64,000 nt of DNA, taken from NCBI RefSeq assembly GCF_014879935.1, contig NZ_JACSRD010000146.1, positions 1-64,000 on the forward strand, given 5' to 3'. This document shows positions 8,073 to 62,642 of this stretch, in pieces. The position numbers and the translations under genes are program-made. The notes below the pieces were generated by a model. The model was not told the DNA's origin. It saw nothing but the letters and a program-made list of their open reading frames with translations, and searched no databases. Origin of the DNA: Prosthecobacter sp. (GTDB lineage Bacteria > Verrucomicrobiota > Verrucomicrobiia > Verrucomicrobiales > Verrucomicrobiaceae). Numbering within the stretch: position 1 is the stretch's first letter; every line of letters starts with the position of its first letter.

Positions 8073-9931
8073 GCCAGCCTCTCCCGAGCCAGATCCAGCT
8101 CCGTCGCGACCGTCCTGTGTGCCGGCGCATGTTTGTGCTGCTCTTTGTGCTGCTGGCGGGCTTTTCGCTCGTCACCTGGAGGCTCGCGGTCATCCACATC
8201 AAGGAATCGCCGCGTCTTTCCAGCCTCGCCGCGAAGAAATACCAGCGTCACATCGTCCTGCCGGCGCATCGCGGCGCCATCAAGGACTTCAATGGCGAAT
8301 ACCTCGCCCATGACGAGGACGTCAGCGAGCTCTACACCGACCGCACCCATCTGCGCGAGATCATCACCGTCCGTCATCATCTCGCTGCCGTGCGTGGGAT
8401 GAAAGCACTGGACCTGCGTGGACAGCTCGACGAGGCGCAGACCATCGCCGCGTATCACGACCACGTCGCCAGGGTGCTCGCGGGCATCCTGCCTCAGCCG
8501 GAGGCTGAGATCCGCTCCCAGGTCGCCTCCGACAAGCCGGAGATCGTGCTGGCAAAGCAGATCGACGAGGAAACCGCGAAACAGTGGGCCGTGCTGTTCA
8601 AGGCCGAGCACATTTTTGGCATTCACATGCGCCCGACGGTCGCCCGCCGTTTCCCGGCGAAGGACCGCCTTTCGCTCGTGTTGGGGGACACCGACACCAG
8701 CAACAAAGGACGCTGGGGCGTCGAAAAGCTCATGGACGCAAGGCTCGCAGGTGTCGCGGGTGAGCAGTTCATCGAGCGCGACAAGTCCGGCAACGAGCTG
8801 CCGGCCTATCGAGGCAGCGTCGTCGAACCGCAAAACGGCAGCGATGTGCATCTCACCATCGACATGCAGCTTCAGGACAACGTCGAGGCCATCTGTGAGC
8901 GTGCGTGGAAGGCCAACAACGCCCGCCGCGTCGTCATCGTCGTCACCGAACCCGCCACCGGCACCGTCCTGGCGATGGCCGCGCGTCCGCATCGTGACGT
9001 CAGCAATCCGGACCTCAGCACCTGGACCAATCACGTGATTGCGGAGCCGTATGAGCCCGGGTCGATCTTCAAGGTCGTCACCCTTGCCGCGGCGCTCGAC
9101 AATCACAAGGTCACCCCCGGCGAGCGCATCGACTGCGGCCAGATGTTTTATGAGGATCCCGTCCGCAAAGTGAAGCTCAGCGACGACGAACCGCTCGGCA
9201 TGCAGACCGTCAAAGGCGTGCTCGTCCATTCCTCCAACATCGGCATGTACAAGATCAGCAAGCGTGTCGGCCAGGACCTGATGCTCGATTACACCTCGCG
9301 TTTTGGTTTCGGTGCCGTCACCGGCATCGGACTGATGGGAGAAAAGGCCGGCTACGTGAACACCGGCCGCTGGAGCAACACCACCTACTCCCGCATGCCC
9401 ATCGGCTATGAGGTCTCCGTCACGCCGCTCCAGATGTGCATGGCCTACGGTGCCATCGCCAATGGTGGCGTGCTGATGAAGCCGCGCCTCATCGACCGCG
9501 TCGTCAAACCCAATGGCGAGGCCGAAGTCATCCCGCCACAGCCGGTCTGGCAGGCCTGCACCGCGAAGACAGCGGCCTCCCTGCGTGACTTCCTCGAAGG
9601 AGTCGTGCTGGAAGGCACCGGGAGCCGTGCGGCCGTCCCGGATGTGCGCGTCGGCGGCAAGACCGGCACCACACGTCGTTATGACCCCGAAAAGAAACGC
9701 TACATCGATGGCGCCTACCTCACCTCGTTCGTCGGCATGGCTCCGATCGACAACCCCCAGCTCGTCTGCCTCGTGATGCTCGACGATCCCCAGGCTGAAA
9801 GCTCGAAAATGATCCGCGGCGGCCGCGTCGCCGCCCCCATCTTCGCCGAAGTCGTGCGTGAGACGCTGGATCACCTCGCCATCCGCAACCAGCGCCCCAT
9901 CAAAGTCGCCGCGAAAGGAGGTGCACAATGA
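8069..9931 (+). CDS. ftsI: Peptidoglycan transpeptidase FtsI/PBP3-like
   Basis: 'EPGSIFKVVTLAAALD', 'SSNIGMYKISKRVG', 'KTGTTRRY'; N-terminal TM. GTG start at 8069 overlaps the ftsL-like stop (GTGA); the track ORF from 7643 is over-extended. Confidence 0.9.
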   Translation: MSQPLPSQIQLRRDRPVCRRMFVLLFVLLAGFSLVTWRLAVIHIKESPRLSSLAAKKYQRHIVLPAHRGAIKDFNGEYLAHDEDVSELYTDRTHLREIITVRHHLAAVRGMKALDLRGQLDEAQTIAAYHDHVARVLAGILPQPEAEIRSQVASDKPEIVLAKQIDEETAKQWAVLFKAEHIFGIHMRPTVARRFPAKDRLSLVLGDTDTSNKGRWGVEKLMDARLAGVAGEQFIERDKSGNELPAYRGSVVEPQNGSDVHLTIDMQLQDNVEAICERAWKANNARRVVIVVTEPATGTVLAMAARPHRDVSNPDLSTWTNHVIAEPYEPGSIFKVVTLAAALDNHKVTPGERIDCGQMFYEDPVRKVKLSDDEPLGMQTVKGVLVHSSNIGMYKISKRVGQDLMLDYTSRFGFGAVTGIGLMGEKAGYVNTGRWSNTTYSRMPIGYEVSVTPLQMCMAYGAIANGGVLMKPRLIDRVVKPNGEAEVIPPQPVWQACTAKTAASLRDFLEGVVLEGTGSRAAVPDVRVGGKTGTTRRYDPEKKRYIDGAYLTSFVGMAPIDNPQLVCLVMLDDPQAESSKMIRGGRVAAPIFAEVVRETLDHLAIRNQRPIKVAAKGGAQ

Positions 9932-11484
9932 AACTGCGTGACATCATCCCGCACCTGGAACGGCCGGCCGTTTCGGGAAGCCTCGACACGGAGGTGACCG
10001 GCTTCACCTACGATTCGCGCAAAGCCGGTCCTGGCATCGTTTTCGTCGCCATGCGTGGCTCGAATGCGGACGGCCACAGCTTCATTCCGAAGGCCATCGA
10101 ACTCGGCGCCGCCGCCATCATCGCCGAACAGGCTCCGGCGGAGGATTGTGCCACGCCGTGGGTTCACGTGCGCCATTCGCGCATCGCCCTGGCCCAGGCG
10201 GCCGCGGCTTTGAACGGCCATCCGGCCAAGGTGCTCACCATCGCCGGTGTCACGGGCACGAACGGGAAGACCACCACGGCCTTCCTCATGCATCACCTTT
10301 TCAACGCCGCCCAGTTGCGCAGCGGCCTGCTCGGCACCGTGTTCTACGATCTCGGTGGCGAGCAGCACATGCCCGCCACGCACACCACGCCCGAATCGCT
10401 CGAGATCCAGGGCCTGCTGGGCCAGATGCGGGACAATGGCTGCCGCGCCTGCGCCATGGAGGTTTCCTCTCATGCGCTCGATCAGGATCGCGTGTTCGGC
10501 CTGCCTTTCGCCGCTGCGATCTTCACCAACCTCACGCAGGACCATCTCGATTATCACGGCACGATGGAGAAATACTTCGAGGCCAAGGTGCGGCTGTTTG
10601 AAATGTCCGCCGCCCTGCCGCGCTCGTCGCTCATCATCAATGGGGACGACTCCTGGGGCCGCAAGCTGGTGGACCGCTTCCAAAACACCGGCCGCGTCAC
10701 GCGTTTCGGCTTCGGCGTGCACAATGAGTTCCGCGCCATCAACGTGCGGTACGACTTCACCGGCACCACCTTCGAACTGGAGGCCCGGGGCCGCAGTTTC
10801 CTCGTCCGCACGCCTCTGATCGGCGACTTCAATGTGTACAACACGCTCGGCGCGCTCGCAGCCGCTCACGGCGTCGGTTTGAACCTGCGTGAAGCCATCC
10901 GTCATATGCAAAACGCCCCGCAGGTGCCCGGACGGCTCGAACGCGTGTCGGAAAACACCCGTTTCCATGTCTTCGTCGATTACGCCCACACGCCGGACGG
11001 CATCGTGAACGCCTTGAAGACCGTCCGTGCGCTGCGTCCACGCCGCATCATCACCGTTTTCGGCTGCGGGGGCGACCGCGACCGCATGAAGCGGCCGAAG
11101 ATGGCTGCTGCGGCCGAGGAAGGCAGCGACATTTGCGTGCTCACGTCCGACAATCCGCGCACCGAGGACCCGGAACAGATCCTGAACGACGCCAAGGCCG
11201 GCTTTGCCCGTCCGAAGGGCCATGCCATCATCCCCGACCGTCGCGAGGCCATCCGCGTCGCCTTCGAAGGCGCCCGTGAGGGCGACATCGTCGTCATCGC
11301 CGGCAAAGGCCACGAAGATTACCAGGACATCAAGGGCAAGAAGCATCCCTTCGACGACCGCAAGGTCGCCCGCCAGCTCCTGCACGACCTCAAAGCTGCC
11401 CGCGCCCAGGAGCGCGAGGAGAAAGCCGCCGAGCGCGAAGCCCAGCGCGGCGGTTTTGGACGCCCACCCCGATTCGACCGCTGA
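9928..11484 (+). CDS. murE: UDP-N-acetylmuramoyl-L-alanyl-D-glutamate--2,6-diaminopimelate ligase
   Basis: 'GVTGTNGKTTTAFLMHHLF', 'FVDYAHTPDGIVNALKTVR', 'TSDNPRTEDPEQI'; ATGA overlap with ftsI. Confidence 0.93.
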   Translation: MKLRDIIPHLERPAVSGSLDTEVTGFTYDSRKAGPGIVFVAMRGSNADGHSFIPKAIELGAAAIIAEQAPAEDCATPWVHVRHSRIALAQAAAALNGHPAKVLTIAGVTGTNGKTTTAFLMHHLFNAAQLRSGLLGTVFYDLGGEQHMPATHTTPESLEIQGLLGQMRDNGCRACAMEVSSHALDQDRVFGLPFAAAIFTNLTQDHLDYHGTMEKYFEAKVRLFEMSAALPRSSLIINGDDSWGRKLVDRFQNTGRVTRFGFGVHNEFRAINVRYDFTGTTFELEARGRSFLVRTPLIGDFNVYNTLGALAAAHGVGLNLREAIRHMQNAPQVPGRLERVSENTRFHVFVDYAHTPDGIVNALKTVRALRPRRIITVFGCGGDRDRMKRPKMAAAAEEGSDICVLTSDNPRTEDPEQILNDAKAGFARPKGHAIIPDRREAIRVAFEGAREGDIVVIAGKGHEDYQDIKGKKHPFDDRKVARQLLHDLKAARAQEREEKAAEREAQRGGFGRPPRFDR

Positions 11485-11500
11485 TGATCGCCGCTCCAAT

Positions 11501-11580
11501 GACGAATGCCGAATGCCGAATGCCGAATGCCCTCGGCATCTGGCCTGCATTTGTCATTCGTCATTCGTCATTCGTTATTT
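11501..11580. repeat. Heptad-based imperfect inverted repeat: (GACGAAT)(GCCGAAT)3 ... (GTCATTC)3 GTTATTT
   Basis: Read directly. Left heptads 11501-11528, right heptads 11553-11580. Arms pair imperfectly, with mismatches roughly every 7 nt. Ends 4 nt before the murF ATG. Confidence 0.9.
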
Positions 11581-11584
11581 TTTC

Positions 11585-12949
11585 ATGAAGCCGACCCCGA
11601 TCCAGACTCTCGCCCAATTCGCCGCAGGCACGCTGCGGGGCGACGGATCGCGCCTGGTCACGAAGGTGAACACCGATTCGCGCAAAATCGCTGATGGCGA
11701 CGTGTTCGTGGCGCTGGTCGGGGAAAAGTTCGACGCGCATGACTTCATCCCGCAGGTCGCTGCCGCCGGAGCCGCCGTTGTTGTTGTCAGCAAGGTGAAC
11801 TCCGCCTGGGGCACCCTGCCTTGCGCGGTGATCGAAGTGGGTGACACGCTGGTCGCGCTGCAAAGCATGGCCCGTGGTTATCGCCAGCAGCACAACCCGC
11901 TGATCATCGGCCTGACCGGCAGCAACGGCAAAACCTCCACCAAAGACCTCACCGCCATCGTGATGGCGAAGAAGCTCCAGACCCGGGCCACCTTTGGCAA
12001 TTTGAACAACCACATCGGTGTTCCGCTCACGTTGCTGTCGCTCCGCGATGGCGATGAATGCTGCGTCACCGAGATGGGCATGAATCATCCCGGCGAGATC
12101 AAGGTGCTCACCGACATCGCCATTCCCGACGCCGGAATCGTCACGAACGTCGGCATGGCGCACATCGAACACATGGGCACGCAGGATGCGATTGCGTGGG
12201 AAAAGGCCACGCTGCCAGCCCAGGTGAAGCGCGGCGGTGTCGTGGTGCTCAATGCCAACGACAAGTACAGCGCTGTGATCGCCCGCCATTGCCAGGGCAG
12301 TGTCTCGACGGCCGGAGTCGGCTGTGGGGACGTGGCGGCATCGAATCTGCGCGCTGATGCCACCGGAACCAGTTTCTCGCTCGACTTCAGCGGTGAGAAG
12401 ATTGAGGCGCGCCTGCCGATTTTGGGCGAACACATGGTTGGAAACGCCGCCTTGGCTGCCTGCATGGGCTGGAGGCAGGGAATTTCACCGGCGGACATCG
12501 CCGATGCGCTGAATCAGGCCAAGCTGACCGGCGGTCGGGTCGAACCGAAAGTCGTCAAAGGCGTTCGTTTCATCGATGACTCCTACAACGCGAATCCGGA
12601 CAGCATGATCGCTGGCTTGCGCACGCTGAGCACGCTGGGAGAGCCTCAAAGCCGCCGCGTGGCTGTGCTGGGCCGCATGGGCGAGCTGGGGCCGATCGCC
12701 GAGGCCGAACATCGCCGCGTGGGCGAATTCGCCGGCTCGCTGAAGCTCGACGCCGTCTTCAGCGTCGGCGGCAACGAGGCCGCATGGATCACCGAGGCCT
12801 CGAAGGCTTCCTCCTCCGAGCATTTTCCAGATCATGCCGCCTGCGCCGCCCGGCTGCGCGAGTGGCTGCGTGAGGGGGATGTCGTGCTGCTGAAGGGCAG
12901 CCGCTCCGCGCGCATGGAGCAGGTTCTCACGCACTTTTCCGCATCATGA
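11585..12949 (+). CDS. murF: UDP-N-acetylmuramoyl-tripeptide--D-alanyl-D-alanine ligase
   Basis: 'GLTGSNGKTSTKDLTAIVM', 'GNLNNHIGVPLTLL', 'FIDDSYNANPDSM'; start taken at ATG 11585, not the extended ORF start 11204, which overlaps murE. Confidence 0.92.
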   Translation: MKPTPIQTLAQFAAGTLRGDGSRLVTKVNTDSRKIADGDVFVALVGEKFDAHDFIPQVAAAGAAVVVVSKVNSAWGTLPCAVIEVGDTLVALQSMARGYRQQHNPLIIGLTGSNGKTSTKDLTAIVMAKKLQTRATFGNLNNHIGVPLTLLSLRDGDECCVTEMGMNHPGEIKVLTDIAIPDAGIVTNVGMAHIEHMGTQDAIAWEKATLPAQVKRGGVVVLNANDKYSAVIARHCQGSVSTAGVGCGDVAASNLRADATGTSFSLDFSGEKIEARLPILGEHMVGNAALAACMGWRQGISPADIADALNQAKLTGGRVEPKVVKGVRFIDDSYNANPDSMIAGLRTLSTLGEPQSRRVAVLGRMGELGPIAEAEHRRVGEFAGSLKLDAVFSVGGNEAAWITEASKASSSEHFPDHAACAARLREWLREGDVVLLKGSRSARMEQVLTHFSAS

Positions 12950-41470: not shown

Positions 41471-41690
41471 AGCTTGGCTTTGGAGCGGGACTTGCTACAG
41501 ATGGCCGCCGGTAATTTCTGCTTTTCTGCCCATGTCCCGCATCCGCCTCTTTTCCCGCATGCTTCAACCGCGGTGCTTCCACCTCACGGGACAGCTTTGC
41601 GCCCGGGTTTCCTCCTGGCCGCAGAAAGCAGGTTTCCTGCGCCTTTTGATTCCCTCTGTTTGGTCCTGCTGCCTCAATCCTGCTCCTGCC

Positions 41691-44600
41691 ATGAACACTC
41701 GTTCCTCCCTCCTGCGCTCAACCCGCGCTCTGCTTAACGCCTTGGTTGCTCGAAGCCGGCTGCTGGTCGTGCTAACTCCAGTTTTGCTGGGAACCCTTTA
41801 TGCCGGCACAGCCGTTCAGTTCACGGCACCGGGCACTGTCAGGACCAATTTTACCGGGACAGTTGGGTTCACCTTCACGCCGTCTTCGTCAATTACTGTG
41901 ACACATGTGGGCTTCTGGGACAACGGTGACGACGGATTGGCGGTGAGCCATCAAGTCGGCATTTGGCAAAACACTGGATTAACGCTCCTGGCATCTGAGT
42001 CAGTTCCCTCAGGCACCACCGCGCCGCTGACGGGTGGGTTCAGATATGTCGAACTTTCCTCACCTTTGGTGCTGTCTGCGGGGGTGCTCTATCGTATCGG
42101 GGCGAGCGTGGAAAGTTCTGATGGCTTTTGTCAGGATCCCACGGGGTTCACATCGGACTCTAAGGTCGGATATGCCAACAGTGCCTATGAAACAGCGCCT
42201 TTTGGCTTTCCCGGCAGCAACGCCAATCCCACCATCGGTTTTTTTGGGGTCAACTTTGTATTCGTTGCTTCCCCGACAGTGACAGGCATCACCCCAAACT
42301 CCGGTAGCACGGTGGGTGGCACGAGTGTGACAATTAGCGGCACGGAGTTGACTGGTGCGACGGCCGTGAAGTTCGGTGGCACGGATGCCCAGGCATTCAC
42401 GGTTGACAGCGCCACGCAGATCACGGCTACGACACCTGCCCATGGTGTCGGAGCAGTCAGTGTTCAAGTGACGACGCCCGGCGGCACCAATGCGGCGAAC
42501 ACCCTGTTCACCTACGTGAACTTTGCTCCGACTGACATCGCTCTTTCGTCCTCCAGCATCGCTGAGAACAACGCGCTTGGAGCCACGGTGGGCATGCTGA
42601 GCGCCACGGATGCCGATGCTGGCCAGACGCACACCTTCAGCCTCGTGACCGGCACGGGAGACACGGACAACAGCAGTTTCGACATCACCGGCAGCACCCT
42701 GACCCTCAATGGCAGCGCCAATTATGAATCCAAGAACAGCTACAGCATCCGGGTGCAGGCCAATGATGGCAATGGCGGAACGTTTCAGAAACAGTTCACG
42801 GTAACTGTGACCGACTTGAACGAGGCGCCGGTGATCACCAGCAACGGTGGCGGGGCGGCGGACAGCGTCACTGTGGCTGAGAACACGACTGCAGTGACCA
42901 CCGTGGTGGCCACGGACCCTGAGGTGCCGGCCACGCAGACGCTGACGTATTCCAAATCGGGAACGGATGCCGCATTCTTCACGATCAACAGCAGCACGGG
43001 GGTGCTCAGTTTCACCAGCGCGCCGAACTATGAAAGCCCGTCGGATGCTGGAAACAACAACGTGTACAATGTGACCGTCACGGCGACGGACAACGGCACA
43101 GGGACGCTGAGCGATTCACAAGATCTGGCGGTGACGGTGACGAATGTGAACGAGGCACCAAGCTTCGCCAAGGGCGCGGATCAGTTGCTTCCCAGCAATA
43201 CGAACAGCCTGCAAACGGTGACCAACTGGGCTACGGCCATCGACGACGGCGACAGCACGGTGACTCAGGGGCTGACCTTCAACGTCAGCAACAACAACGC
43301 CGGCCTTTTCACGACGGCACCCTCCATCAGCAGCAGCGGCACGCTGACCTACACCCCCAGTGGCACCGCGGGCACGGCGACGGTGACGGTGTCCTTGACT
43401 GATGACAACACGATCAACGGCAACCCGGCGCTGACGACCGCGGACCAGACCTTCACCATCACAGTGGAGGTGGTGGCGGACTACACCGTGTCCACGGCGG
43501 GCAATGCTGTCGTGATCACTGACAACAGCGGCAACGCGGACACGCTGTCCATCAGCGAACCCAGCGCGGGGAACATCAACTTTGCCGCCACAGGCCGCAC
43601 CTTCAGTGTCAACGGCGGGCTCAATCTCACGGGTGCCTCGGGCAGCCTTGCCCTCGCCGGTGTGACCAGCATCACGGTCAACGCCGGGGCGGGTGCGGAT
43701 GCCATCAGTGTGGGTGCCTTCACCGGCACGCTGCCGAGCCTCACTCTGAATGGCGGCATCGGCGACGACACCGTGAATTTCAACGGCGACATTACCTTTG
43801 CTTCCGGTGCGAGCCTGGACGTGGACCTGCAGAACGACAATGTCACACCAGGCACGGACGCTGTGATTGTGGCGGCCAATGCGAACGTGATCACCGCCGG
43901 CTCGGGCACTGTGGCGGTCAAGGTCAGCAAGAACATCGCGCTGGCCAGCGGGTCGAGCTTTGAAACGGTGGATGGTGGCATCACGCTGGAGGCCAATCAG
44001 CAGGGGACGCCAACAAGTGGCGGCTTTGTGGGTGTGGATGTCAGCAACGGCCTGGTCCGTTCGACCGGCACAGGAGTGGTTTCTGTTCTGGGCAAAGGCG
44101 GCAGCACAGGGAACGACCAGATCGGTGTACGCGTGCATGCTGGCGGCGACATCATTGGCGGCACGAGCGGCACCCTGACGGTCATCGGTGCTGGTGGCGC
44201 TTCGACTGGCACGGGTAACGCGGGTGTCAATGTAAACGGCAGTGGTTCCACGATCACAGCTCTCGGTGCGCATGTGCAGGTCACGGGCACGGGTGGAGGG
44301 GGTACATATAGCATGGGACTTGACCTCTATAGCTCGCCCCAAATCACCTCAACGGGAGCGGGCAATCTCACGATCACTGGCAATGGCGGGCTCAACCCTG
44401 CTGCTGGTGCGTTCAATCATGGCATCATCATGAGCGCAACCACGTTTGCCTCGACCGGAGGCAACATCAGCGTGACCGGCAACGGTGGTTCTGGTTCAAA
44501 TGCCAGCGGAGACTTCACCGGGATTCAAATGGACGACAGCACGATTACCTCAAGTGGTAGCGGCTCGGTGACGGTGAATGCCACAGCAGGAACAGCAGCA

Positions 44601-47600
44601 ACGTCGCAAACCACCATTGGCCTGGATATCCGGTTCACCTCACAAATCACCTCCTCTGGAGGCGATGTCAGCGTCACGGGCACGGGTGGCAACACGAGTG
44701 GCTCATCGACAGGTGCGGGCGCTGGCGTGCGACTCATCGGCAATGGCACGATCACGGCGGGCGGGACGGGTTCAGTCAGTGTCACCGGCGCGGGTGTGGG
44801 GGGCTCTGCCGCTGGCCATGAAGGCATCGTGATCAATGGTTCTGGCTTGAATTCGAATCTGGCGCGCATCGGTGCCGCCAATGGCGCGACGACGTTGACC
44901 GCTACCTCGGGCAACAGCGCCAGTCATGCCTTGGTGGTCGGGAGTTCCAACGCCGGGCGTATCACCACTGGCAACAACAATCCGATCATCATCAACGCCG
45001 ACAGCATTAACTTTGCTGGCTCTGCCATTGTTTCCAGCGGTACGGCCCCGACGACCATCAACACCCGCACAGCAGGCACCTTGATCAACCTCGGCGGCGC
45101 TGACGTGCTCTCAGGCAGTCCCCTCACTCTCGGACTTACGGACGCTGAACTGGATACGATCACCGCCAGCACGCTCATCATCGGCAGTGCCAGCAGCGGA
45201 AATGTGACCGTGAGCGCGGCCATCAGCCCAGCCAGCTATGCGACTTTGGACATCCAAAAAGGAGTCACCTTCTCCGCTACTGGCGGATTCGCCTCGGATG
45301 TGACTTCGATGGCCGTGTTTGAGAAGATGAAGGCCAACGGTGCCGTGGTCATCAACACCAGCGCCACGCTGACGGCGACCGCCCTCGGCGGCTATGTCCC
45401 CACCCAGTCGGATTCGTTCACGATCCTCGACAACATCTCCGCCAGCACGACGACGGGTAATTTCAGCGGCAAGTCCGAGGGCACGCTGGTCGCCATCGGT
45501 GGCACCAACCGCGCCATCACCTACACCGGGGGCACTGGCAATGATGTGGTGTTCACCTCCCTGGCACCGACGCTCACCACTCCCACCAGCACGGCACTGG
45601 CGGCTCTCACGGCCACGCTGGGCGGCAATGTCACGAGTGATGGTGGTGCCGATGTCACCGCACGGGGGGTGGTCTATTCGGTCACCACCACCAATGGCGA
45701 TCCCCAGATCGGGGGGACGGGAGTCACCACGGTCACAGGGACCGGGACCACGGGCGTGTTCACCGTCGATGTCAGCAGCCTTTCAGCGAGCACCGGCTAC
45801 ACCTATGCCGCCTATGCTACCAATGCGGCAGGCACCAGCTACAGTGCCACAGGCACCTTCACCACGACGGGTGACTTTGCTCCCACGCCGGGTGTCCCGG
45901 TCCATTACAGCGATGTGATCGGCGGCTCAGGTCCCGTCAAGATCACGGGAGGTGGCGAACTAGTGCTCAGCGGCGCCAACACCTACACGGGAAACACGCT
46001 GGTGCAGAACGGCAAGGTGTCCATCAACTCCGTCGCCCCCGGCTCGGCTCCGCAGCCCCTCGGCCGGTCAACCGACGTGCACCTGGGCGTGGCGGGCGCC
46101 TCCTCCGGCACGCTGGTTTACACCGGCGGCGCAGGCACTTTGGACAAGCACATCAGCGCCTTGGGCAATGGCTCTGACACCATCCAGAACTCCGGCAGTG
46201 GTCTGCTCACTCTCTCTGGGACGCTCACGAAAACAGGCACCACGCTCACCTTGAAGGGCGGCGCCTCTGGCATCCGGGTGACCGGCGCGATCACGGGCAA
46301 CACGGGTAGCCGGAACTCCGACCTGGTCATTGACGGTGGCACCACCACGCTGGCCAGCGCAAACACCTACAACGGCCCCACTTACATCATCAACGGCGGC
46401 ACGCTGAACGCGGACGCGGTGGACGCCCTTCCCACCAGCCCGGCGCGTTCGGACATCCTGATGGACCAGACCGGCACGGGCGGCTCCACGCTGGCCCTCG
46501 GCGTCAGCCAGTCGGTATTCTCCCTCACCGGGGCTGCCACCTCCTCCCTGAACCTCAATGCGAACTCGCTGACGGTGGGGGACGCCTCCGGCAGCAGCAC
46601 CTTTGCCGGCGTGATCAGCGGCGTCGGCGGCAGCCTCATCAAGGATGGGGCCAGTGAGCTGACCCTCACAGGAGCGAACACCTACACTGGTGGTACGACG
46701 GTGAGTGCCGGAACGATTGTCCTGGGCAACCAGGACGGCTTCGGCACAGGAACCGTGACCCTCGCCGACGGGGTCACATTCCGCACGGCCAATTTTGAGG
46801 GGAACAGCGCGGCGGGAGCTCTTCCGAACGACTTCGTGCTCAGTGGCGGGACGGTGAACGTGGATGTCAGCTTCGCGACCGGCAAGGACATCTGGATCAA
46901 CACGTCGGTATCAGGGACTGGCGGCCTGTCAGTGTCGGGCTCAGGACGAGATCCTGGATTGATGCTCTCTGGTGCCAAGACTTTCAGTGGCGGCGTCACG
47001 ATCGGCAGCGACAGCCGGGTGACGATTGATCACAACTCCTCCCTGGGAACGGGCGGCCTGCAAATCAGTGGCGGTACAGGCACCCTGCGAGTGGCTGGCA
47101 ATGTTTCAGGAGTGGCCAACGACATCTCCGTCGCCAGCGGGGCGATTCTCGGCGCCGTGGTGGACAGCGGCCTGACGGGCGTGCTGTCCGGGGTGATCAG
47201 CGGCTCCGGCGGTGGTCTGACCAAGAGCGGCGATGGCACCCTGGCTCTGAGCGGAGCGAACACCTACACGGGAGACACGACGATCAGCGCGGGCACCCTT
47301 CAGATCAACAATGGCGGCTCGCTTTCCACCAGCAGCGCGATCATCAACAACGCCACCCTGACCTTCAACCGCAGCACGGACATCACGCAGGGAACGCACT
47401 TTGCCAGTGTGATCAGTGGCACCGGTGCGGTGAGGAAGTCTGGCAGCGGCATCCTCGTGCTCACGGGAGCGAACACCTACACGGGCTCCACGATCATCAG
47501 TGGAGGCACGCTGCAGATCGGCAATGGCGGCACCACCGGCTCGCTTTCCACCAGCAGTGCGATCACCAACAACGCGACTTTAGTCTTCAATCGCAGCGAC

Positions 47601-50600
47601 ACGATCACGCAGGGCGCCGACTTCAACAGTGTCATCGGTGGCAGCGGCGGGACAGTGACGCAGTCGGGCAGCGGTACGTTGGTGTTCAATGGAAACAACA
47701 CCTACACGGGTGCCACGACAGTGAGCACGGGCGTGTTGAACATCCGGCACGCGAACGCTTTGGGCACGACGGCGGCGGGCACGAGCGTGACCTCTGGGGC
47801 TGCGTTGCAGATCCAGGGCGGCATCACCACCGGAGCGGAGGCCTTGACCCTGAACGGCACGGGCGTGAGTACCACCGGTGCTCTGCGCAATATCAGCGGC
47901 AACAATGACTTTGCGGGTCTGGTGACGCTGGGCAGCGCGACGCGGATCAACTCGGACTCCTCGGGTGAAACATTGACCCTGAGCAACACGGGCACGATCA
48001 CCGGTACTTTTGGATTGACCGTTGGTGGCGCAGGAAACACGACGATCGCCAGCATCATTGGAACCGACAGCGGAACCCTGACCAAGGATGGCGCGGGGAC
48101 GCTGACTCTCACGGCCGCGAACACTTACACGGGAACGACAACGATCAGCGCAGGCACCCTGGCCCTCAGTGGCAGCGGCCGCCTTTCCAACAGTTCCGCT
48201 GTCTCGGTTTCTGGCGGCACTTTCGACATCGGCAGCGTGAGCGACACGGTGGGAGCGGTGACCTTGGGTTCAGGCAGCATCACCGGCAGCACGGGGGTGC
48301 TGACGGGATCGAGCTACGCCGTGGCCTCCGGCAGTGTGAGCGCGATCCTGGGCGGTTCCGGAGTGGCTCTGACGAAGACGACGGCCAGCACGGTCACGCT
48401 CTCCGGAGTGAATACTTACACCGGGGCGACCACCATCAGTGCAGGCACCCTGGCCCTGAGCGGGGCGGGGGCGTTGTCCGACAGCACCGCCGTGAATCTG
48501 ACCGGAGCGACCGGTGTTTTTGACATCTCCGGCATCACGGCGTCTGGCGAGACCGTCGGCTCACTGGCCGGCGTGGCCTCGTCTTCGGTGGTGATCACCG
48601 GGAAGACGCTGACCGCAGGTGGAACGAATGCCAACACGACCTTCGCCGGTGTGATCAGCGGCGTTGGCGGGGCGCTGACGAAAGCGGGGGCCGGCGAGCT
48701 CACCCTGAGCGGAGCCAACACCTACTCTGGCAACACGACGATCGATGGTGGGGCGATCTTCATCAACCATGCCACGGCGATCGGTTCCGGAGCCTTGGTG
48801 GCCGGTGCAACGGCCCGGATCGACAACACATCGGGGAGCGCCATCACTCTTTCGAACAACAACAACGTGACCCTGAGCGGTGGCAGCCTGACCTTCACCG
48901 GTTCCAATAATCTGAGCTTCGGCTCGGGCGTCCTGACCATCAGCGGCAATAACCGCACGATCACCACCGATGGAGGTGTGCTGACCTTTGGTGGCATTGA
49001 TGCCGCTGGCTCCAGCCCCACGACGCGGAGCCTGACGAAGAGCGGAACGGGCACGCTGGTCATCACCGGTGCGGCTGGTGCCAATTTCCAAGGAGGATTC
49101 ATCCACGATGACGGAACGCTGATCCTTGGAAACAAGGCGTCTTTGGGCACCGGGGCGCTGACGATGCAGGGAGGCATACTTCAGGCCTCCACCGACCTGG
49201 ATGGGGCCAATGCGCTCACGGTTTCCGGCTGGAGCCTGGCAGCCAGTTCCAACTTCAGTGGGAACAGCAGCATCACGCTCGGAAACAGTACCGTTGGCAT
49301 GGGGGCCAGCCGTTCGATTTTCAATGACATCACCGCAGGAAAGGCCCTGACACTGGGTGCCTTCGCGATTTCCAGTGACTCGACTTCGCAAACCCTGACC
49401 ATCAGCGGGAGCGGGGCGACCACAGTGAATGGAGTCATCAGCAATGGCGGCACCTCGACGGGCAGCGCCCTGACCAAGAACGGAACGGGGGTGCTGACCT
49501 TGACGGCCGCCAATACGTATGCCGGTGCGACGACCATCACCGCTGGCACTCTGGCCTTGAGCGGTGCGGGTGCCCTTTCCGACAGCTCTGCGGTGAATTT
49601 GAACGGGGCTACAGCGGTGTTTGACATCTCCGGCATCACGGCTGCAAGCGAGTCCGTGGGCTCGCTGGCGGGTGTGGTGAGTTCGTCAGCGGTCCTGGGT
49701 GCCAAAACCCTGACCGCAGGCGGCAACGATGGCACCACCAGCTTTGCCGGGGTGATCAGTGGAACTGACGGCAGCCTGACCAAAGCGGGCACCGGAACCT
49801 TGACGCTGTCTGTAACGAACACGTTCACAGGCACGACGACGGTGAGCGCCGGAACGCTGTCGATCACCGGCAGCATCAATAACTCGGCCACCATTGCGGT
49901 GAATGGGGGCCTGCTTTCGACCAACGGTGCCAACAAACTGGCCGATACGGCGGCGGTGACGGTGTCAGGTGGTACTCTCACGGTGGGTGGGGCGGACACG
50001 GTTGGAACGCTGACAACCAGTGGCAGCGGCAGCACGATCGGCGGTTCGGCCACGTTGACGGCATTGACTTATGCCCTGGGTGGCACCGGCACGACCGTAA
50101 CGGGCAACCTGGGAGCGGGAACGATCAACAGCAGCGGCACAGTGGCGCTGAACGGAACGGCGGCGGCGGCGACGGTGAACGTCACCGCTGGAGCGCTGAC
50201 GCTGGGAGCCAGCAGCGCGATCAACAGCGCCACGGTCGTGGCCATCAGCGGTGGCAGCCTGACTCTGGGAGCCTCCAACCAGATCGGCGACGCGGCGGTG
50301 ACGGTTTCCAGCACGGGCACCCTGGCCTTGGGAACCAACAGTGACACGGTCGCCTCGGTCAGCCTGACCGGGACAGGCAGCATCACCGGCAGCACCGGGG
50401 TGCTGACCAGCACGGCGGCCTACGACATGCAGGCAGGCAGCGTGAGCGCGATTTTGGGCGGCACGGCCGGGCTGAACAAGACCACGACAGGGACAGTGAC
50501 CCTGAGCGGAGCGAACACCTACACCGGCACGACCCAGATCAGCGCGGGAACGCTGGCCTTGAGCGGGTCGGGTGCCCTCTCCAACAGTTCATCCGTGATC

Positions 50601-53600
50601 GTAACCGGCGGCACCTTCGACATCGGCTCGGTGAGTGACACGGTGGCCGGGGTGCAACTGGCATCCGGCAGCATCACCGGCACCAGCGGGGTGCTGACGA
50701 GCAGCAGCACCTACGATGTGCGTTCTGGCGATGTCAGCGCGATCCTGGGCGGCACGGTGGGACTGACCAAGACAACGACCGGTACGGTGACCCTGACGGG
50801 GGCCAACAACTACACAGGTCTGTCCGCTGTGAGCGCGGGCATTCTGAACATCCGGCATGCAACGGCTTTGGGCACCACCGCAGGCGGCACCTCGGTGAGC
50901 AATGGAGCCACCTTGCAGCTGCAGGGCGGCATCACCGTGGGAGCGGAAGCCCTGACCCTCAATGGCGGTGCCGCGAGCGGCGAGACGGGAGCCCTTGTGA
51001 ATGTGAGCGGAACCAACACCTATGGTGGAGCGATCACCGTGGCGGCCAGCAGCTCGATCTCGGCAGCGACTGGATCGGAGCTCAACCTGACGGGCGGTGT
51101 GGTCAAGAATGGCACCACAGCGACCTTCAACGGCGGCGGCACCATCAACGTGGGTACGGTCGGCATCAGTGGAGCCTCGGCGAACTCGGACCTGATCATT
51201 GATGGTGTCACGGTGAATCTGAATGTGGCCAACACCTACAATGGGCCGACAATCATCCGCAACAGCGGCACGCTCAAGGCCAACGTGGTCAACGCATTGC
51301 CCACGGCCAACGGGCGCACGGCGGTCACCTTCGACGGCTCGGGGACATCGGTGCTGACGCTGGGCGCGGCGCAGTCGGTGGCGTCGTTGACCTCCGCTGG
51401 GGTAGCGACGATCACACTGGACACCAACACGCTCACGGTGGGAACCTCGGCTGGCAGCACGACCTTTGCTGGGACTATTGGCGGCACGGGCGGCCTCACG
51501 AAAGATGGAGCGAGCACGCTGGTGCTCAGCGGCAGCAACACTTACACGGGCTTGACGGACGTGCAGGCCGGGACGCTCAGCTTTGGTGCCAGCGATGTCA
51601 TCGCTGACACCGCCAGCGTGAGGGTTTCGGGCGGCGCCCTGGCCGTCAGCACGTTCAGCGACACTGTGGCAGGCGTCCAATTGACGTCCGGCAGCATCAC
51701 GGGGAGCAGTGGCGTGCTGACCAGCACCAGCGCCTATGACATGCAGGCTGGCAGCGTGAGTGCGATCCTGAGCGGGGCGGTGGGGCTTACAAAGACCACG
51801 ACAGGCACGGTGACCCTCACTGGAGCCAACCTCTACACCGGGCTCACGACTGTGTCCGCAGGGATCCTCAACATTCAAAACGCCAGTGCCCTGGGAACGG
51901 TGGCGGCCGGGACCAGTGTGGCTTCAGGAGCCGCATTGGAACTCCAAGGCGGTATCACGACTTTGGCCGAAGCACTGACCTTGAACGGCACCGGCGTCAG
52001 CAATGGCGGCGCACTGCGCAATATCGGCGGGAATAACGATTTCGCCGGTCTGGTGACCCTGGGCGGAGCGGCGCGGGTCAACTCGGATGCTGGGACGCTG
52101 ACCTTGAGCAATACAGGAGCGATCACCGGTTCTGGACTTGGATTGACAGTCGGAGGTGCGGGCAACACAACGATTAACAGCATCATCGGCACAGGCACAG
52201 GTTCATTGACCAAGGATGGCTCTGGAACACTGACTTTGACTGGTGCAAACACCTTCACAGGTGCAACCGCGATCAATGCCGGGACGTTGCAAGTGAGCGG
52301 ATCGCTCGCTGCTGGCAGCAACGTGGCTGTAGCCACGGGAGGCACCCTGACGGGTGCCGGCACGGTGAACGGAAACGCGACCTTGACGGGCAATGGGGTG
52401 ATCAACCTCACCAATCCAGGTGTGATCAGCGGCACCTTGGGAGTGACCGGAGGCAACTGGAACGGAGCTGGTAGTGTGACCGGTGTTGTCACCTCCAGCA
52501 GCGGCACCTTCAACATTGGCAGCGGGGCGAATTTGACCGCGACCAGCGGACTGAACGTCACCGGGGGCACCATCGCGAGCGGCAGTGGCACTAGTACCAT
52601 CACGGGCAGTGTGAACTACACGAGCGCCAGTTCCAGCACCTTCAACGGTGTGATTGCTGGCAGCGGCAAGACGGTGACCATGAACAACGGCTCAGGCAGC
52701 CTGACGCTCGGTGGCAGCAACACCTATACTGGATTGACGGACGTCCAGGCTGGGACGTTGGCCTTCGGTGCCAGCAATGTCATTGCTGATACAGCCAGCG
52801 TGAAGGTCTCTGGCGGCACCCTGGCCATCGGAACACGCAGCGACACAGTGGCTGGCGTGCAATTGACCGCCGGCAGTATCACCGGAAGCAGTGGTGTCCT
52901 CACCAGTACCAGCACCTACGATGTCCAGGCCGGCAGCATCAGCGCAATCTTGGGTGGAACAGTTGGCCTGACCAAGACCACGGCGGGCACGGTCATCCTC
53001 TCAGGCACCAACACCTACACAGGGGCCACGCTCTTGAGTGCGGGCAGCCTGGTGGTCAATGGCAGCATCGGCAGCAGCAGCCTGACGACCATCGAAAGCG
53101 GTGCCACTCTGCTCGGCACGGGGACGGTCGGAGCGATCCAGCTCAACAGCGGCGGGGCGATCAATGCCGGCGGTGTTTCCTCGGCAGGCACTTTGAACAC
53201 CGGCAGCATTGCCATTGTGGACGGCCAGTTGGTGTTCAACCTTGGCGGCACAGGCAGCTACGACAGCTTGAACACGACCGGGACAATCGATCTGACCGCA
53301 GGCGGCACAGGTGCACAACTGGTTCTTAACGCGATCAGTGCTTATACGGCCACGCTTAACAACGCGTTTACTCTTGTGACCAACGATTTTGCTGACAGCA
53401 TCAGCGGGGCGTTTGCCAAGGGAACGTTCGGCGGCACGAAGGTGATCACCCTGAGTGGTGTGGACTATGTGGAGAATGTTCTGGGCTCAAATTATTACGG
53501 GCGCATCAACTATGCGGGCAGCTCCGCCACGCCAGCCAACCTCAGTGCTTCTGGCAATGACTTGGTGCTCAAAGTGGTGACACCGGAGATCACCATCACA

Positions 53601-56600
53601 GAGTCTGGCAACAACCAGACGGACGGCGGGACCTACAACTTTGGTGATGTGGACAAAGTCGTGCCAGCCGTCCCTCTCACCAAGACATTCACCATCAAGA
53701 ATGACGGCGAGGTGGATCTTCTGGACATCTACGTGAACGACCCGACCGGAGCCCATGCCGGCGACTATTCGGTCAATCGCACTGGAACAGCGACCTTCCT
53801 GCCTCCAGGAGCGAGCACCACTTTCACCGTTACTTTCGACCCGAGCCGGATCGGAACGCGCACTGCTGCCATCACGATCGACAGCACCGATCTGGATGAA
53901 AACCCGTTCAATCTGGCGCTTACAGGTGTTGGATCGATCGCGCGTGATCTCAGTGAGCCTTGGACGGTGCTCTATGGGGGCGTCGATGCTCCTGCCACAC
54001 GGCGTGACGGCGTGGCCATGGCGGTGGCCATCCAGCGCAGCACGACAAGGGACGAGGCGCTGGCTGTCTTCGCCACCGGCTATACGACCAATGCAAACGG
54101 CGACCGTGACATCTACACGGCCAAATATGACCCGGTGACTGGGGCGAAGTTGTGGGACCAGATCTTTGCTGGAGCGGCTGGCGGTGCTGACGAGGCGGCT
54201 GCCATAGCGGTGGATGCCAATGGGGACGTGGTAATCACAGGGTTTACGACCGTCGGCACCAGCAATACTGACGTATATATCGCGAAGTACTCCGGGGTAA
54301 ACGGGGTGGCCCTCTGGGAGGACACATATGCCGGGAGCGGAGGTAGCTTTGACGAAGGCAACAGCATCGCCGTGCATTCGAGCGGCCGTGTTTTGGTAAC
54401 GGGTTATGGCAGGACGTCCACCACCGGAGCAGACATGTATGTGGCAGGATACTCCCCGGCGGGCGGGCTTTTGTTCGAACGGTTGATTGATGGAGGCAGC
54501 AACGGAGACGATGTGGCTCGTAGCATCGCCGTGGACAGCGCGGGCGATGCCGCTATCGCCGGTTATGCTCGCGGATCTGGAAAAGACTTCAGAATCTACA
54601 AGGTCAACGGCTTCACAGGGGCCACTTCCTGGCAATGGAACGTCAATGGCAGCACCAACACCGATGACGAGGCTTTTTCCGTGGCATTCGACTCAACCGG
54701 TCAGGTGGCTGCCACCGGCACGGTCCGCAGCACGAATTATGATCTTTACACAGTCAAACTCACCGCCGCAGGCGGGCTTGTATGGCAGAAACAATGGAAC
54801 AGTTCGTTCAATTCGTCGGATGCGGGGTATGACATCGCCGTGGATTCCTCTGGCAACGTGATCGTGGGTGGGACCAGCTATCGTGCCGCCAGCATCATGG
54901 ACGGTTATGTCGTTAAGTATGCGGCTGCGAATGGAGCTTTGGTCTGGGATCGCCGTTTTAATGGATCAGTGTCAAACCAGGATGTCATCAACTCAGTCGA
55001 TCTCGACGGCCTCGACAACGTGATCGCGACGGGATTTTCGTTCAATGCCATTCCGAACTCCGATGTTCTGACAGCCAAGATGTTCGCCTCCGATGGCGGG
55101 CTCGTTTGGGAGAAGCGCTACAACAGCGCTGCTAGTGGCTGGGACAACGGAGTGTCAGTGGCTGTCTCTACCGATGGAAACGTGTTTGTGGGAGGTTATG
55201 CAGGCAGTTCGAGCGGCACATCCGACTTCCTCGTCAAAAACTATCAGGCCTTGGTTCCCCCGGTCCAAAATGCTCAGACCATCGCGTTTGCTAATCCCGG
55301 CGGTCCCCGGGTGGCTGGATCAGACCTGCCGCTATCTGCCTCCGCCTCCAGTGGCCTTGCCGTGAGGTTCTCGGTGGTAAGCGGACCCGCGACACTCAAC
55401 GATGGCAACAACACCTTGAGTTTCACAGGAACGGGCCCAGTGACCATCCGGGCCAGCCAGCAAGGCAATAGCACATGGGCCAAGGCGACGCCTGTGGACC
55501 AGTCATTCACCGTCATCAAGAGCAGCCAGACCATTGACTTTGCCCTTCCCTCCACCGTCCCTTACACGACCAGCACGGTGGTCCTCTCTGGGGCGGCCAC
55601 GAGCAATCTGGCGGTCACCTATGCGATCGTGAGCGGCCCTGGCACGATTACAGGAGACGTGCTGTCGTTCACCGGCAGCGGAGTGGTGACAGTGAGCGCG
55701 AATCAGGCCGGGGATGCCCGCTTCAACGCCGCCACCGAGGTGCAGCGAAGCATCAATGCTTCCAATACAGCTCCAGTGATCATTCCTGCTGGCGTCCAGC
55801 AAGGGTGGCTTTTGTCTTATGCTGGAAGTGGAGCTGGCGAGGGCCGAGCCGTGGCACTGGAGGTTTCTGGGAGCAGCGCTGTGGCGTCATTTGTTGCTGG
55901 CTACACTACAGTGGGTGGCAACAAGGACATTTACCTTATGAAGTTCAATAATGATGGAACTGCAGCATGGGGGGCGCCAACGATCGTCCCTGGTTCAGGC
56001 GGCGGCGATGACGAAGCTGTGGCCGTCGCAGTTGATGCCTCTGGGAATGTGTACATCAGCGGCTATGTCACCATGGGATCCGGCAACACAGATGTCTATG
56101 TGGCCAAATTCAATGGTGGCACAGGTGCGAATGTGTGGACGCGCACCTTCGCCGGAAGCGCTGGAGGTGCCGATGCGGCAGTGGGGCTTGCGCTTGATGG
56201 TGCAAGTAACGTGATTGTCGGGGGCTACACTCGCAGCATCGCGGGCACTGGCAATGATTTCTTCGCCGCCAAGCTCTCACAAGCGGCCGGCACCACTGTC
56301 TGGACGGCCACACACAACAGCAGTGGAGCAGTCTCGGATGTGCCCAATGCCGTCGCCGTCGGCGGCAGTGGGGACGTGGCACTTGCCGGAATCGCGGGTA
56401 GCGATGCGTGGACTCTTCTCCTTCATTCGAGCACGGGGGGCATCAAATGGCAACGTCGCTATGATGCGCAGAGCAAGCCTGATGCCGTTCGGGGCGTGGT
56501 GGTGGATGCTAACAACGATGTGATCATCACCGCCTACAGCCAGGCTGCCAACTACAACATCTACACTGCGAAATACTCGCGGGTGGATGGTGATATCATT

Positions 56601-59663: not shown

Positions 59664-62642
59664 TTACGGGTGAGTGATCGCCTCATCGAGATTCAACACC
59701 GCACGGCACACCGACGTCCACAGCGCTTCGCCGTCGAGTTTGTTGGCGCGTTGTTTGGCGAGGAAGGTTTTGAGCATGGTCAGCTCATCGGCGGCGGGCG
59801 GGCGGGTGAGGCAGCGGCGAAAGGTGTTGGTGAGGCGGGAGTCGTCGTCGGGGGATTCGGCGATGACGGCTTTGGCCATGGCTTGGGCGGCTTCCATGAA
59901 CATCTGGTCGTTGAGTAGCGTGAGGGCTTGCAGCGGGCTGTTGGAGACATCGCGACGGGCAAGACAGGCCTCGCCGGTGGGCGCGTCGAAGGTGGTGGCC
60001 ATGGCGAAGGGGGCGGTGCGCTTCGTGAAGGTGTAGAGGCTGCGACGGTAGCGGTCCTCGCCCTCGCTGGTCTTCCATTCCACTTTGCCGTAAGTGCCCT
60101 CGGTGGTGACGCTGGCTGGCTGCGGCGGATACACGCCCGGGCCGCCCATTTTGAGTGAGAGCACGCCGGCGGCTTTGAGCGCGGAATCGCGGATGATTTC
60201 GGCATCGAGGCGGAAGCGTGGGGCGATGACGTAGAGCGAGTTTTCCAACTCGCTGTTTTCTGAACGAGTTGGAAAACTCGTTCTACGGCTGGCCTGCTTA
60301 TACGTCTGCGACATCACGATGAGCTTGTGCAGCTTTTTGAGGCTCCAGCCTTGCTTCACAAACTCCACGGCGAGCCAGTCGAGCAGCTCAGGATGGCTCG
60401 GCGCCTCGCTTTGATAACCAAAGTCCTCCAAGCTCTTAACAAGGCCGCGTCCAAAAAAGGCCTGCCACTGGCGGTTCACGGTGACACGGGCGGTGAGCGG
60501 GTTTTCGGGGCTGAAAAGCCACTTCGCGAAGGTGAGTCGGTTGGCAGGCGCGTTCTTCGGCAGCGAGGGCAGGAAGGCGGGCACAGCAGGTGGCACGATT
60601 TCCTTCGGCTGGAGGTATTCGCCGCGATGGTAGCGATTCGTGGGACGCGGATTCGACGCCGGACGCTCCTTCAATGCCAGCGTGGCCTGTCCACGCGGCA
60701 TCTGACGACGCGCAGCAAGCAAAGGCGCGGCAGCTTGCTTCATCTCGGGAGCAGTTTCGAGAAAACGCATCAGCACTTCTGACTTCTGACCTCTGACTTC
60801 TGACTTCTGCTCCGCGAGTGCATTCTCGACTTCCAACGGATGCCCGGTGGCCTCAGCGTGATCGCTAGTGGTCACGGAGAGGCGGAAATGACCAAGCGGG
60901 CAGGCGAAGTGCTTCTCGAAGAGCATTTTCAAATCGAAGCCATTCGTGAGATCGACCGGCTTCTCGAAATGAAACACCGCGGCGTGGCTTTGACCGTAAC
61001 CGCCGAGCACCTGCCAGCCGCTGCTCATCTCGGCGTCGAGCGTGGCCATGGCGTTGTTGGTCTTTTTCGCGGCGGCTTTGCGTGCGGCTTTCTTCGTCGG
61101 CTTCGCAGCGGCGGCGGCATCGTTGATCTTGTCTTCCTCTTCTTCGTTGGTGGCCTCGGCGTTCGTGATCTTCACGCGCTGTCCGTTTTGGAAGGCCTGC
61201 AGCTCGCTGAGGAAGAATCCGCCGATGGGGCCTTCGTAGTAAGTGAGTCCGGGGCCGTCGTTCGGCAGGCTGGGATGGCTGGCGACCTCAAGTTTGATGG
61301 CGGTGACGCCTTTGATCGGCGCTTTGAAGCTCAAATCATAGACATCGCTCTTCGAGATGTCGCCACTGCCGAGGATGAAGCCGTCGGGCTGCTGCTCGAG
61401 ATGTGGCATGGTGGTCTTCATGGCCGTGGGGCGGATGATTTGCCAGTTCGAGGCCCGTTTCGACTCGCCTTCGATCCAGCCGGCAAAACGGCTCTGCATC
61501 GCCGCCTCGCCTCCGGGGAACCTTTTCGGCAAATCGGCCTCCAGCTTTGCGATGCGCTCCGCGTGGGCTTTTTGCTGCGCTTCGATGTCGGGCGTCGGGA
61601 TGTGGTAGGTCGGCTCGTCGGCGTTGTTGAGCAGCGCCATGACGCTGTAGTAGTCGGTGTGCAGGATGGGATCGTATTTGTGCGTGTGGCACTGGCAGCA
61701 GTTCAGCGTGAGGCCCATCCACGCCGTACCAGTGACGCCGACGCGATCGACCATGGCGTAAAAGCGGTATTCATTCGGATCGATGCCGCCTTCCTCGTTC
61801 AGCATCGTGTTTCGATGAAAGCCGGTCGCGATGATGTCCTCCGCCGTGGCATTTGGGAGCATGTCTCCGGCGAGCTGCTTGATGCTGAACTGGTCGAAGG
61901 GCATGTCGTCATTCAGCGCCTTCACCACCCAGTCACGGTAAGGCCAGATCTGACGCGGCCGATCTTTCTCAAACCCATTCGTGTCGGCGTAGCGTGCGAG
62001 ATCCAGCCAGCGACGCGCCCAGCGTTCGCCGTATGGTTTGGAGGCGAGGAGGGTATCGACGAGCTTTTCGTAGGCTTGACCGGATTGACCGGATTGACTT
62101 TGGACGAAGGCGTCGGCTTCGGCGGGTGTGGGGGGGAGGCCCGTGAGGTCGAGATAGAGGCGGCGGACGAGGGTGTAGGGGTCGGCTTCGGGGGAAGGTT
62201 TGAGACCTTCTTTTTCGAGACGCTCACGAATGAAATGATCGATGCTGGCCTTCGGGTCCTTCGAAGGCTGTGGCGGTGAGTAGGCCCAATGCGCCTCATA
62301 CTTGGCCCCTTCGGCAATCCATTGCTTCAGGATGCTCTTCTCCTTGTCGGAGAGCACCTTCTTCGTGTGCGGCGGCGGCATGATCTCGTCCTCGTCGGTG
62401 GAGAGGATGCGTTTCACGACCTCGCTGGCGCCCGGTTTGCCGGGAATGATGGCGATCTCGCCGGATTTGCCCGCGCCGTGGGCGGAGGCCTGCAAATCAA
62501 GGCGCAGCTTGCCTTTGCGGGCCTTGTCATCCATGCCGTGGCAGGTGAAGCACTGCTGCGCGAGCACCGGACGCACGTCCCGATTGAAATCGAGGGCAGT
62601 GGCGGTGCTGGCGAGCAGAAAAAGAAGGAAGGGGGGCTTCAT
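59664..62642 (-). CDS. PSD1 / DUF1549-DUF1553 domain cytochrome c protein
   Basis: Signal peptide 'MKPPFLLFLLASTATA'; 'VRPVLAQQCFTCHGMDDKARKGKLRLD'; 'TLVRRLYLDLTGLPPTPAEADAF'; 'NPLTARVTVNRQWQAFFGRGLVKSLEDFGYQSEAPSHPELLDWLA'. Confidence 0.92.
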   Translation of the reverse strand: MKPPFLLFLLASTATALDFNRDVRPVLAQQCFTCHGMDDKARKGKLRLDLQASAHGAGKSGEIAIIPGKPGASEVVKRILSTDEDEIMPPPHTKKVLSDKEKSILKQWIAEGAKYEAHWAYSPPQPSKDPKASIDHFIRERLEKEGLKPSPEADPYTLVRRLYLDLTGLPPTPAEADAFVQSQSGQSGQAYEKLVDTLLASKPYGERWARRWLDLARYADTNGFEKDRPRQIWPYRDWVVKALNDDMPFDQFSIKQLAGDMLPNATAEDIIATGFHRNTMLNEEGGIDPNEYRFYAMVDRVGVTGTAWMGLTLNCCQCHTHKYDPILHTDYYSVMALLNNADEPTYHIPTPDIEAQQKAHAERIAKLEADLPKRFPGGEAAMQSRFAGWIEGESKRASNWQIIRPTAMKTTMPHLEQQPDGFILGSGDISKSDVYDLSFKAPIKGVTAIKLEVASHPSLPNDGPGLTYYEGPIGGFFLSELQAFQNGQRVKITNAEATNEEEEDKINDAAAAAKPTKKAARKAAAKKTNNAMATLDAEMSSGWQVLGGYGQSHAAVFHFEKPVDLTNGFDLKMLFEKHFACPLGHFRLSVTTSDHAEATGHPLEVENALAEQKSEVRGQKSEVLMRFLETAPEMKQAAAPLLAARRQMPRGQATLALKERPASNPRPTNRYHRGEYLQPKEIVPPAVPAFLPSLPKNAPANRLTFAKWLFSPENPLTARVTVNRQWQAFFGRGLVKSLEDFGYQSEAPSHPELLDWLAVEFVKQGWSLKKLHKLIVMSQTYKQASRRTSFPTRSENSELENSLYVIAPRFRLDAEIIRDSALKAAGVLSLKMGGPGVYPPQPASVTTEGTYGKVEWKTSEGEDRYRRSLYTFTKRTAPFAMATTFDAPTGEACLARRDVSNSPLQALTLLNDQMFMEAAQAMAKAVIAESPDDDSRLTNTFRRCLTRPPAADELTMLKTFLAKQRANKLDGEALWTSVCRAVLNLDEAITHP
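60231..60286. repeat. Palindromic repeat element inside the PSD1 ORF (22-bp arms, 21/22; inner 16 bp perfect)
   Basis: CGAGTTTTCCAACTCG (60237-60252) and exact reverse complement CGAGTTGGAAAACTCG (60265-60280), 12-nt spacer; outer 6 bp match with one mismatch. Confidence 0.92.
60774..60808. repeat. Heptad tandem repeat (GACTTCT)n, 5 units, inside the PSD1 ORF
   Basis: cacttct gacttct gacctct gacttct gacttct; encodes QKSEVRGQKSEV on the minus strand. Confidence 0.92.
62076..62100. repeat. 9-bp tandem repeat (TTGACCGGA)n, about 2.7 units, inside the PSD1 ORF
   Basis: ttgaccgga ttgaccgga ttgactt; encodes QSQSGQSGQ on the minus strand. Confidence 0.85.

Follow-up and report, generated by a model that had tools for sequence, protein, structure and literature searches.

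The genes murE and murF of a Prosthecobacter strain are separated by a gap of 100 nt that holds two arms of tandem 7-nt units (heptads) in inverted order, placed directly before the murF start codon. What this sequence is, and what it may do for the translation of murF, was analysed in a stretch of 64 000 nt (the window; contig NZ_JACSRD010000146.1, positions 1–64 000), in the genome from which it comes (G000) and in related genomes. The initial annotation of the window proposed that it may be a mobile palindromic repeat, a translation-controlling RNA structure, or both.

The inverted heptad repeat between murE and murF

The two genes are preceded by one for a PBP and followed by an mraY-like gene (Pfam; coordinates of the junction are given in Table 1). 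TRF delimited the tandem heptads as AATGCCG × 4.9 at positions 11498–11531 and CATTCGT × 4.6 at 11548–11579, and an inverted-repeat scan returned 26-nt arms (11498–11523 and 11547–11572) that are 88% complementary, with 23 nt between them. When one mismatch was allowed, the pattern CATTCGNCATTCG was matched seven times in the window, always within the murE–murF gap (0.61 matches expected), and none of 100 shuffled versions of the window reached seven. The genome-wide search that had been suggested rendered 119 + 151 = 270 double-heptads of the form CATTCGNCATTCG, compared with 0 + 0 for a control with the reversed pattern. The heptad-built inverted repeat described upstream of murF is real: its arms, their complementarity and the excess in both window and genome were all confirmed.

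The last recognisable heptad of the right arm ends at about position 11579, and is followed by TTTTC and then by the murF ATG. The lack of a Shine-Dalgarno sequence at this place is not due to the repeat, since congeners devoid of the repeat also lack a GGAGG-like site, and in them murF overlaps murE by ATGA instead.

Table 1. Features of the murE–murF junction (window coordinates)
Feature	Position	Strand	Basis and remarks
murE (Mur ligase)	9928..11484	+	Pfam Mur_ligase_M/C, ORF list; stop TGA 11482–11484
34-codon mini-ORF MIAAPMTNAECRMPNALGIWPAFVIRHSSFVIFS*	11484..11588	+	ATG overlaps murE stop (TGATG), TGA overlaps murF ATG (ATGA); putative translation
ATGA, left flank of element	11484..11487	+	Sequence; may be a duplicated 4-bp target or a stop/start signal under selection
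Left heptad arm (AATGCCG)n, first unit AATGACG	11498..11531	+	TRF and inverted-repeat scan
Loop between arms	11532..11546	+	Loop comparison: no other genomic copy shares it
Right heptad arm (CATTCGT)n	11547..11579	+	TRF and inverted-repeat scan
ATGA, right flank of element	11585..11588	+	Sequence; includes murF start codon 11585–11587
murF (Mur ligase)	11585..12949	+	Pfam; full-length alignment to congeners

A dispersed family at gene boundaries

What lies between murE and murF is a single member of a dispersed heptad family, its tandem 7-nt units recurring in many scattered sets as in families of heptameric tandem repeats. The family is concentrated in a Prosthecobacter-like genus, a name taken from named loci (the best named relatives of murF come from Prosthecobacter MAGs). 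Triple-heptads were present in 25 of 34 sampled congeners, with 1 to 92 matches each compared with 143 in G000, and absent from all 21 genomes of other families of the order. In a survey of the phylum, 22 of 388 genomes contained matches, most of them with a single match or a handful; G219 and G252 had sets of moderate size. The reversed pattern used as a control matched one genome of that survey (G258) 15 times, and these matches probably belong to an unrelated heptamer family of another Verrucomicrobiota genome. No prior report of the repeat, be it from Prosthecobacter or from other Verrucomicrobia, was found in a literature search that covered few subscription journals.

Distances to gene starts were recorded for 132 arrays sampled from listed places; the starts came from a simple, purpose-made gene caller, and the distances are approximate. 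Ninety of these arrays lay ≤30 nt from a predicted gene boundary and 11 well inside genes, though the window is 93% coding; heptad arrays avoid gene interiors. Among single arrays ≤40 nt upstream of a start, 19 had the GTCATTC sense toward the start and one the opposite orientation (P = 4 × 10–5). The initial annotation had reasoned that copies with no bias to start codons, and with no conservation at this junction, would argue for neutral replication slippage. Position and orientation proved to be strongly biased to gene boundaries, while at the murE–murF junction itself there was almost no conservation.

The two strands differ in what they can encode. Neither a stop nor an ATG occurs in any of the frames of the (GTCATTC)n strand, which encodes V-I-R-H-S-S-F; every unit of the (GAATGAC)n strand includes an ATGA, and all of its frames are stopped. 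Copies would survive at gene edges because the former strand is free of stops and ATGs and the latter ends every frame, and the 19:1 orientation rule would provide a simple, translation-based reason for the presence of a heptamer repeat at start codons. About a dozen copies encode segments of signal peptides (assigned by eye). Sulfatases carry a heptad arm in the signal peptide (MKSLALVFSSFVILHSSFAAEQRPNI and MRFLLAVLVSSFCILHSSFAATQRPNI), and an enzyme of family PF06439 has the heptad-arm N-terminus MKRLVLLLSSFAITHSSFGEA, compared with MKRLVFFSLLLLAPAFAQ in its G068 orthologue. Tentatively, and with the odds well against it, the element might be regarded as a repeat of gene boundaries in which each strand serves to adapt translation: (GAATGAC)n would end every frame with an overlapping ATGA restart in each heptad, (GTCATTC)n would offer a signal-peptide-like sequence open in all frames, and insertions at stop/start overlaps would allow translation to continue downstream and would, time and again, provide secreted proteins with new N-termini and signal peptides.

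The element has the structure AATGACG(AATGACG)n–unique loop–(CGTCATT)n. Its outer end is sharp at AATGACG (in a comparison anchored on that motif), which together with the inverted arms provides terminal inverted repeats such as those of MITEs. Single arms are frequent among the arrays, and copies at other sites, for example the orthologous ones at the tyrosyl-tRNA synthetase (TyrS) junction, have often lost one arm. Since the variable heptad bases in the two arms of a copy do not match and whole arrays switch heptad variant together between species (L203/L220), the arms evolve separately, by slippage, a process that would change both the number of heptads and their variants. Arm polarity is nearly fixed (64 left–right versus 9 right–left transitions), while the loops, of 7–63 nt, have no sequence common to copies except for orthologues and one possible pair. 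Copy-and-paste of whole elements was rejected on account of these loops, although old age could also explain their lack of a common sequence. Nearly fixed polarity with unrelated loops, together with the frequent single arms, would also fit the addition of heptads to DNA ends in repair by a template-carrying or slippage-prone polymerase, the arms being made separately, the loop being filler and the palindrome a by-product. This is highly improbable: the enzyme for it is hypothetical, inverted ends would lead to a fixed polarity in any element, and loop similarity may just have faded in old copies.

A second repeat of ∼150 nt, with ends AATGTCGTTAAGTTAAG and CTTAACTTAACGACATT, lies inside heptad arrays (L229:1502–1600, L236, L232:546–740, L224, L221, L219 and L214), like insertion sequences that target REPs. 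It is also found at G000 contig ends, at L017 (about 40–60) and L019 (about 15–32).

Filled sites, empty sites and translation across the junction

Of 30 congeners examined at murE–murF, the insert was present in two (G000 and G014); the other 28 have an empty site, which rules out a conserved murF leader. The comparison with repeat-free relatives showed that in 17 near congeners murE and murF overlap by 4 nt, a single ATGA, while in G000 and G014 ATGA is found on both sides of the element. The doubled ATGA is a candidate target-site duplication, ATGA being also functionally constrained at this place. In a three-gene tree, on which presence of the insert is patchy, G014, G031, G000 and G026 fell into one clade (support 0.996); since G000 and G014 are not sisters, a single old insertion would imply that G031 and G026 lost it; otherwise there was transfer, or there were two insertions. 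The pattern of filled and empty sites recurs at the TyrS junction, where four species have gaps of ∼12 nt and most others heptad arms, some of them decayed. It recurs too at L180, a secreted-protein gene whose empty site is an ATGA overlap: four species have plain signal peptides over the ATGA-type overlap and many others heptad-derived N-termini. The proposal of a mobile palindromic repeat fits these observations, in that the family is dispersed and its orthologous sites are cleanly filled in some genomes and empty in others, although neither a transposition event nor a mover was seen. Such sites in related species show the repeat entering operon genes that overlap tightly, with the stop/start overlaps retained, and being incorporated into signal peptides of secreted enzymes. 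Two questions become testable: the birth of protein N-termini from repeats, and operon coupling after insertion. At TyrS loci L326, L327, L334 and L336, a small palindrome (e.g. GACGCC-ATAAA-GGCGT) surrounds the upstream stop codon beside the element.

As had been anticipated, the RNA of positions 11484–11600 folds into a stable stem (–42.5 kcal/mol, z = –4.7), and so does that of G014 (z = –6.1). The stem ends just upstream of the murF start, which it leaves uncovered in G014 and covers weakly in G000. It is nevertheless unlikely that such a hairpin directly controls translation of murF, or serves as a signal in the RNA that a binding protein or a nuclease recognises: the arms do not co-vary (own-arm agreement 0.388 versus 0.411 in shuffled pairs, P = 0.87; 43 copies), the orthologous TyrS-junction copies are often one-armed, only 2 of 30 congeners have the element at murE–murF, and no Rfam family reached the gathering score at the element, the only matches being sub-threshold ones to microRNAs. 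The first two of these observations led to the rejection of a selected RNA hairpin, and they leave the translation-controlling structure unsupported in the form originally put forward. A promoter/terminator scan returned nothing at the element.

A link to translation of another kind is suggested by the reading frame of the insert. In both carriers it reads as a mini-ORF of 34 codons, whose first codon overlaps the stop of murE and whose last overlaps the start of murF, the left overlap being TGATG in G000 and ATGA in G014, and the right one ATGA in both. Over 95 nt the two inserts show no indel and are identical at 83 positions (P = 1.5 × 10–6 compared with fourfold sites). This signal sits in the heptads, which are identical at 53 of 56 positions and more conserved than fourfold sites; the non-heptad positions (30 of 39 identical) do not differ significantly from fourfold sites (P = 0.07), and purifying selection on the whole element was rejected. 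So was a conserved mini-peptide, with 7 nonsynonymous versus 4 synonymous codons and changes spread evenly over codon positions. This is taken as modest evidence that retention concerns the frame rather than the peptide or the stem.

Termination–reinitiation via the mini-ORF is proposed. Ribosomes that finish murE would begin anew at the ATG overlapping its stop, pass through the stem while translating the mini-ORF, terminate at the ATGA and start once more at murF; the ancestral coupling of murE and murF translation at the ATGA overlap would thereby survive the insertion. Such a role, that of a spacer placed at the ancestral overlap, is the best supported for this copy, and we give it a probability of about one half, the steps of translation being inferred. 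In its favour, two genomes with the insert have the same frame, length and both overlaps; an exact relay would be expected by chance in ∼6% of insertions (17%, the proportion of frames open in other paired elements, times an estimated 1/3 for phase). Against it, the mini-peptide is unconserved, conservation beyond that of fourfold sites is confined to the heptads, G000 and G014 are not sisters, and most other tandem junctions with an array have no exact relay, which led us to reject a general coupling relay at every site. It is possible, if a good deal less probable, that a dispersed repeat merely landed at the junction and was tolerated, with turnover by slippage, no effect on murF and a mini-ORF open by chance. 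The divergence of the non-heptad positions, the unconserved peptide, the patchy presence on the tree and the decay of copies elsewhere are all consistent with a neutral insertion, but retention of frame, length and both stop/start overlaps in two diverged genomes, with no indel in 95 nt, argues against it.

Comparison with known repeat systems

The closest known system is that of the TAACTGA heptamers of Beggiatoaceae, while REP, MITE and RPE sequences match in part. MacGregor (2015, PMC4679880) describes TAACTGA direct repeats of marine Beggiatoaceae as scattered, mostly intergenic 7-nt tandem units that lie close to start codons, strongly favour one orientation and in many cases come without a ribosome-binding site; stops occur in all frames of one strand, the other is translatable, and no mover is known. 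The Prosthecobacter heptads are alike in these respects, with a bias to one orientation of 19:1. They differ in unit (GAATGAC/GTCATTC, often in inverted pairs, versus TAACTGA, mostly direct with one inverted), in the strand that points toward the start codon (open in Prosthecobacter, stop-bearing in Beggiatoaceae) and in their frequent N-terminal coding use. Heptameric STRR and long simple sequence repeats of cyanobacteria and others, cited there, are also seven-base tandem units scattered intergenically; their units differ from those seen here, and inverted pairs at start codons do not figure in the description given (PMC4679880).

REP, BIME and REPIN sequences with RAYT (e.g. PMC3733652) have in common with the heptad element short inverted repeats, a mostly extragenic position and a high copy number. 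A stem of fixed sequence (20–40 nt) tagged with GTAG/CGTC, as in REPs, was not found, CGTC occurring only as part of the heptad; also unlike in REPs, loops are unrelated between copies and the arms are tandem heptads. This genome is rich in RAYT-type Y1 transposase genes (27 matches to PF01797), which also occur genus-wide (loci L375–L382). RAYT is not supported as the mover: none of 8 RAYT loci had flanking heptad arrays, and RAYT and heptad copy numbers were only weakly correlated (rho = 0.42, P = 0.01, not phylogeny-corrected). MITEs (reviewed in PMC10969869) resemble the element in being small and non-coding, with inverted ends, clean empty sites and possibly a short target duplication (here ATGA). 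Heptad copies differ from MITEs in having no common internal sequence, and no related autonomous element was seen near the sampled arrays. The palindromic elements of Rickettsia (RPE) lie inside protein-coding genes, to whose products they add residues. The heptad repeat is likewise read in frame within proteins (the sulfatases and the PF06439 enzyme, the latter with repeat-free orthologues), but in another genus and with another unit, and here at N-termini, overlapping signal peptides.

The window also contains a second heptad tandem array, ACTTCTG × 5 at 60775–60809, unrelated to the murE–murF heptads, a 117-nt tandem repeat (2.6 copies, 71–376) at the start of a 1768-codon ORF, and an ORF of 5434 codons for a giant protein at 41532–57836.
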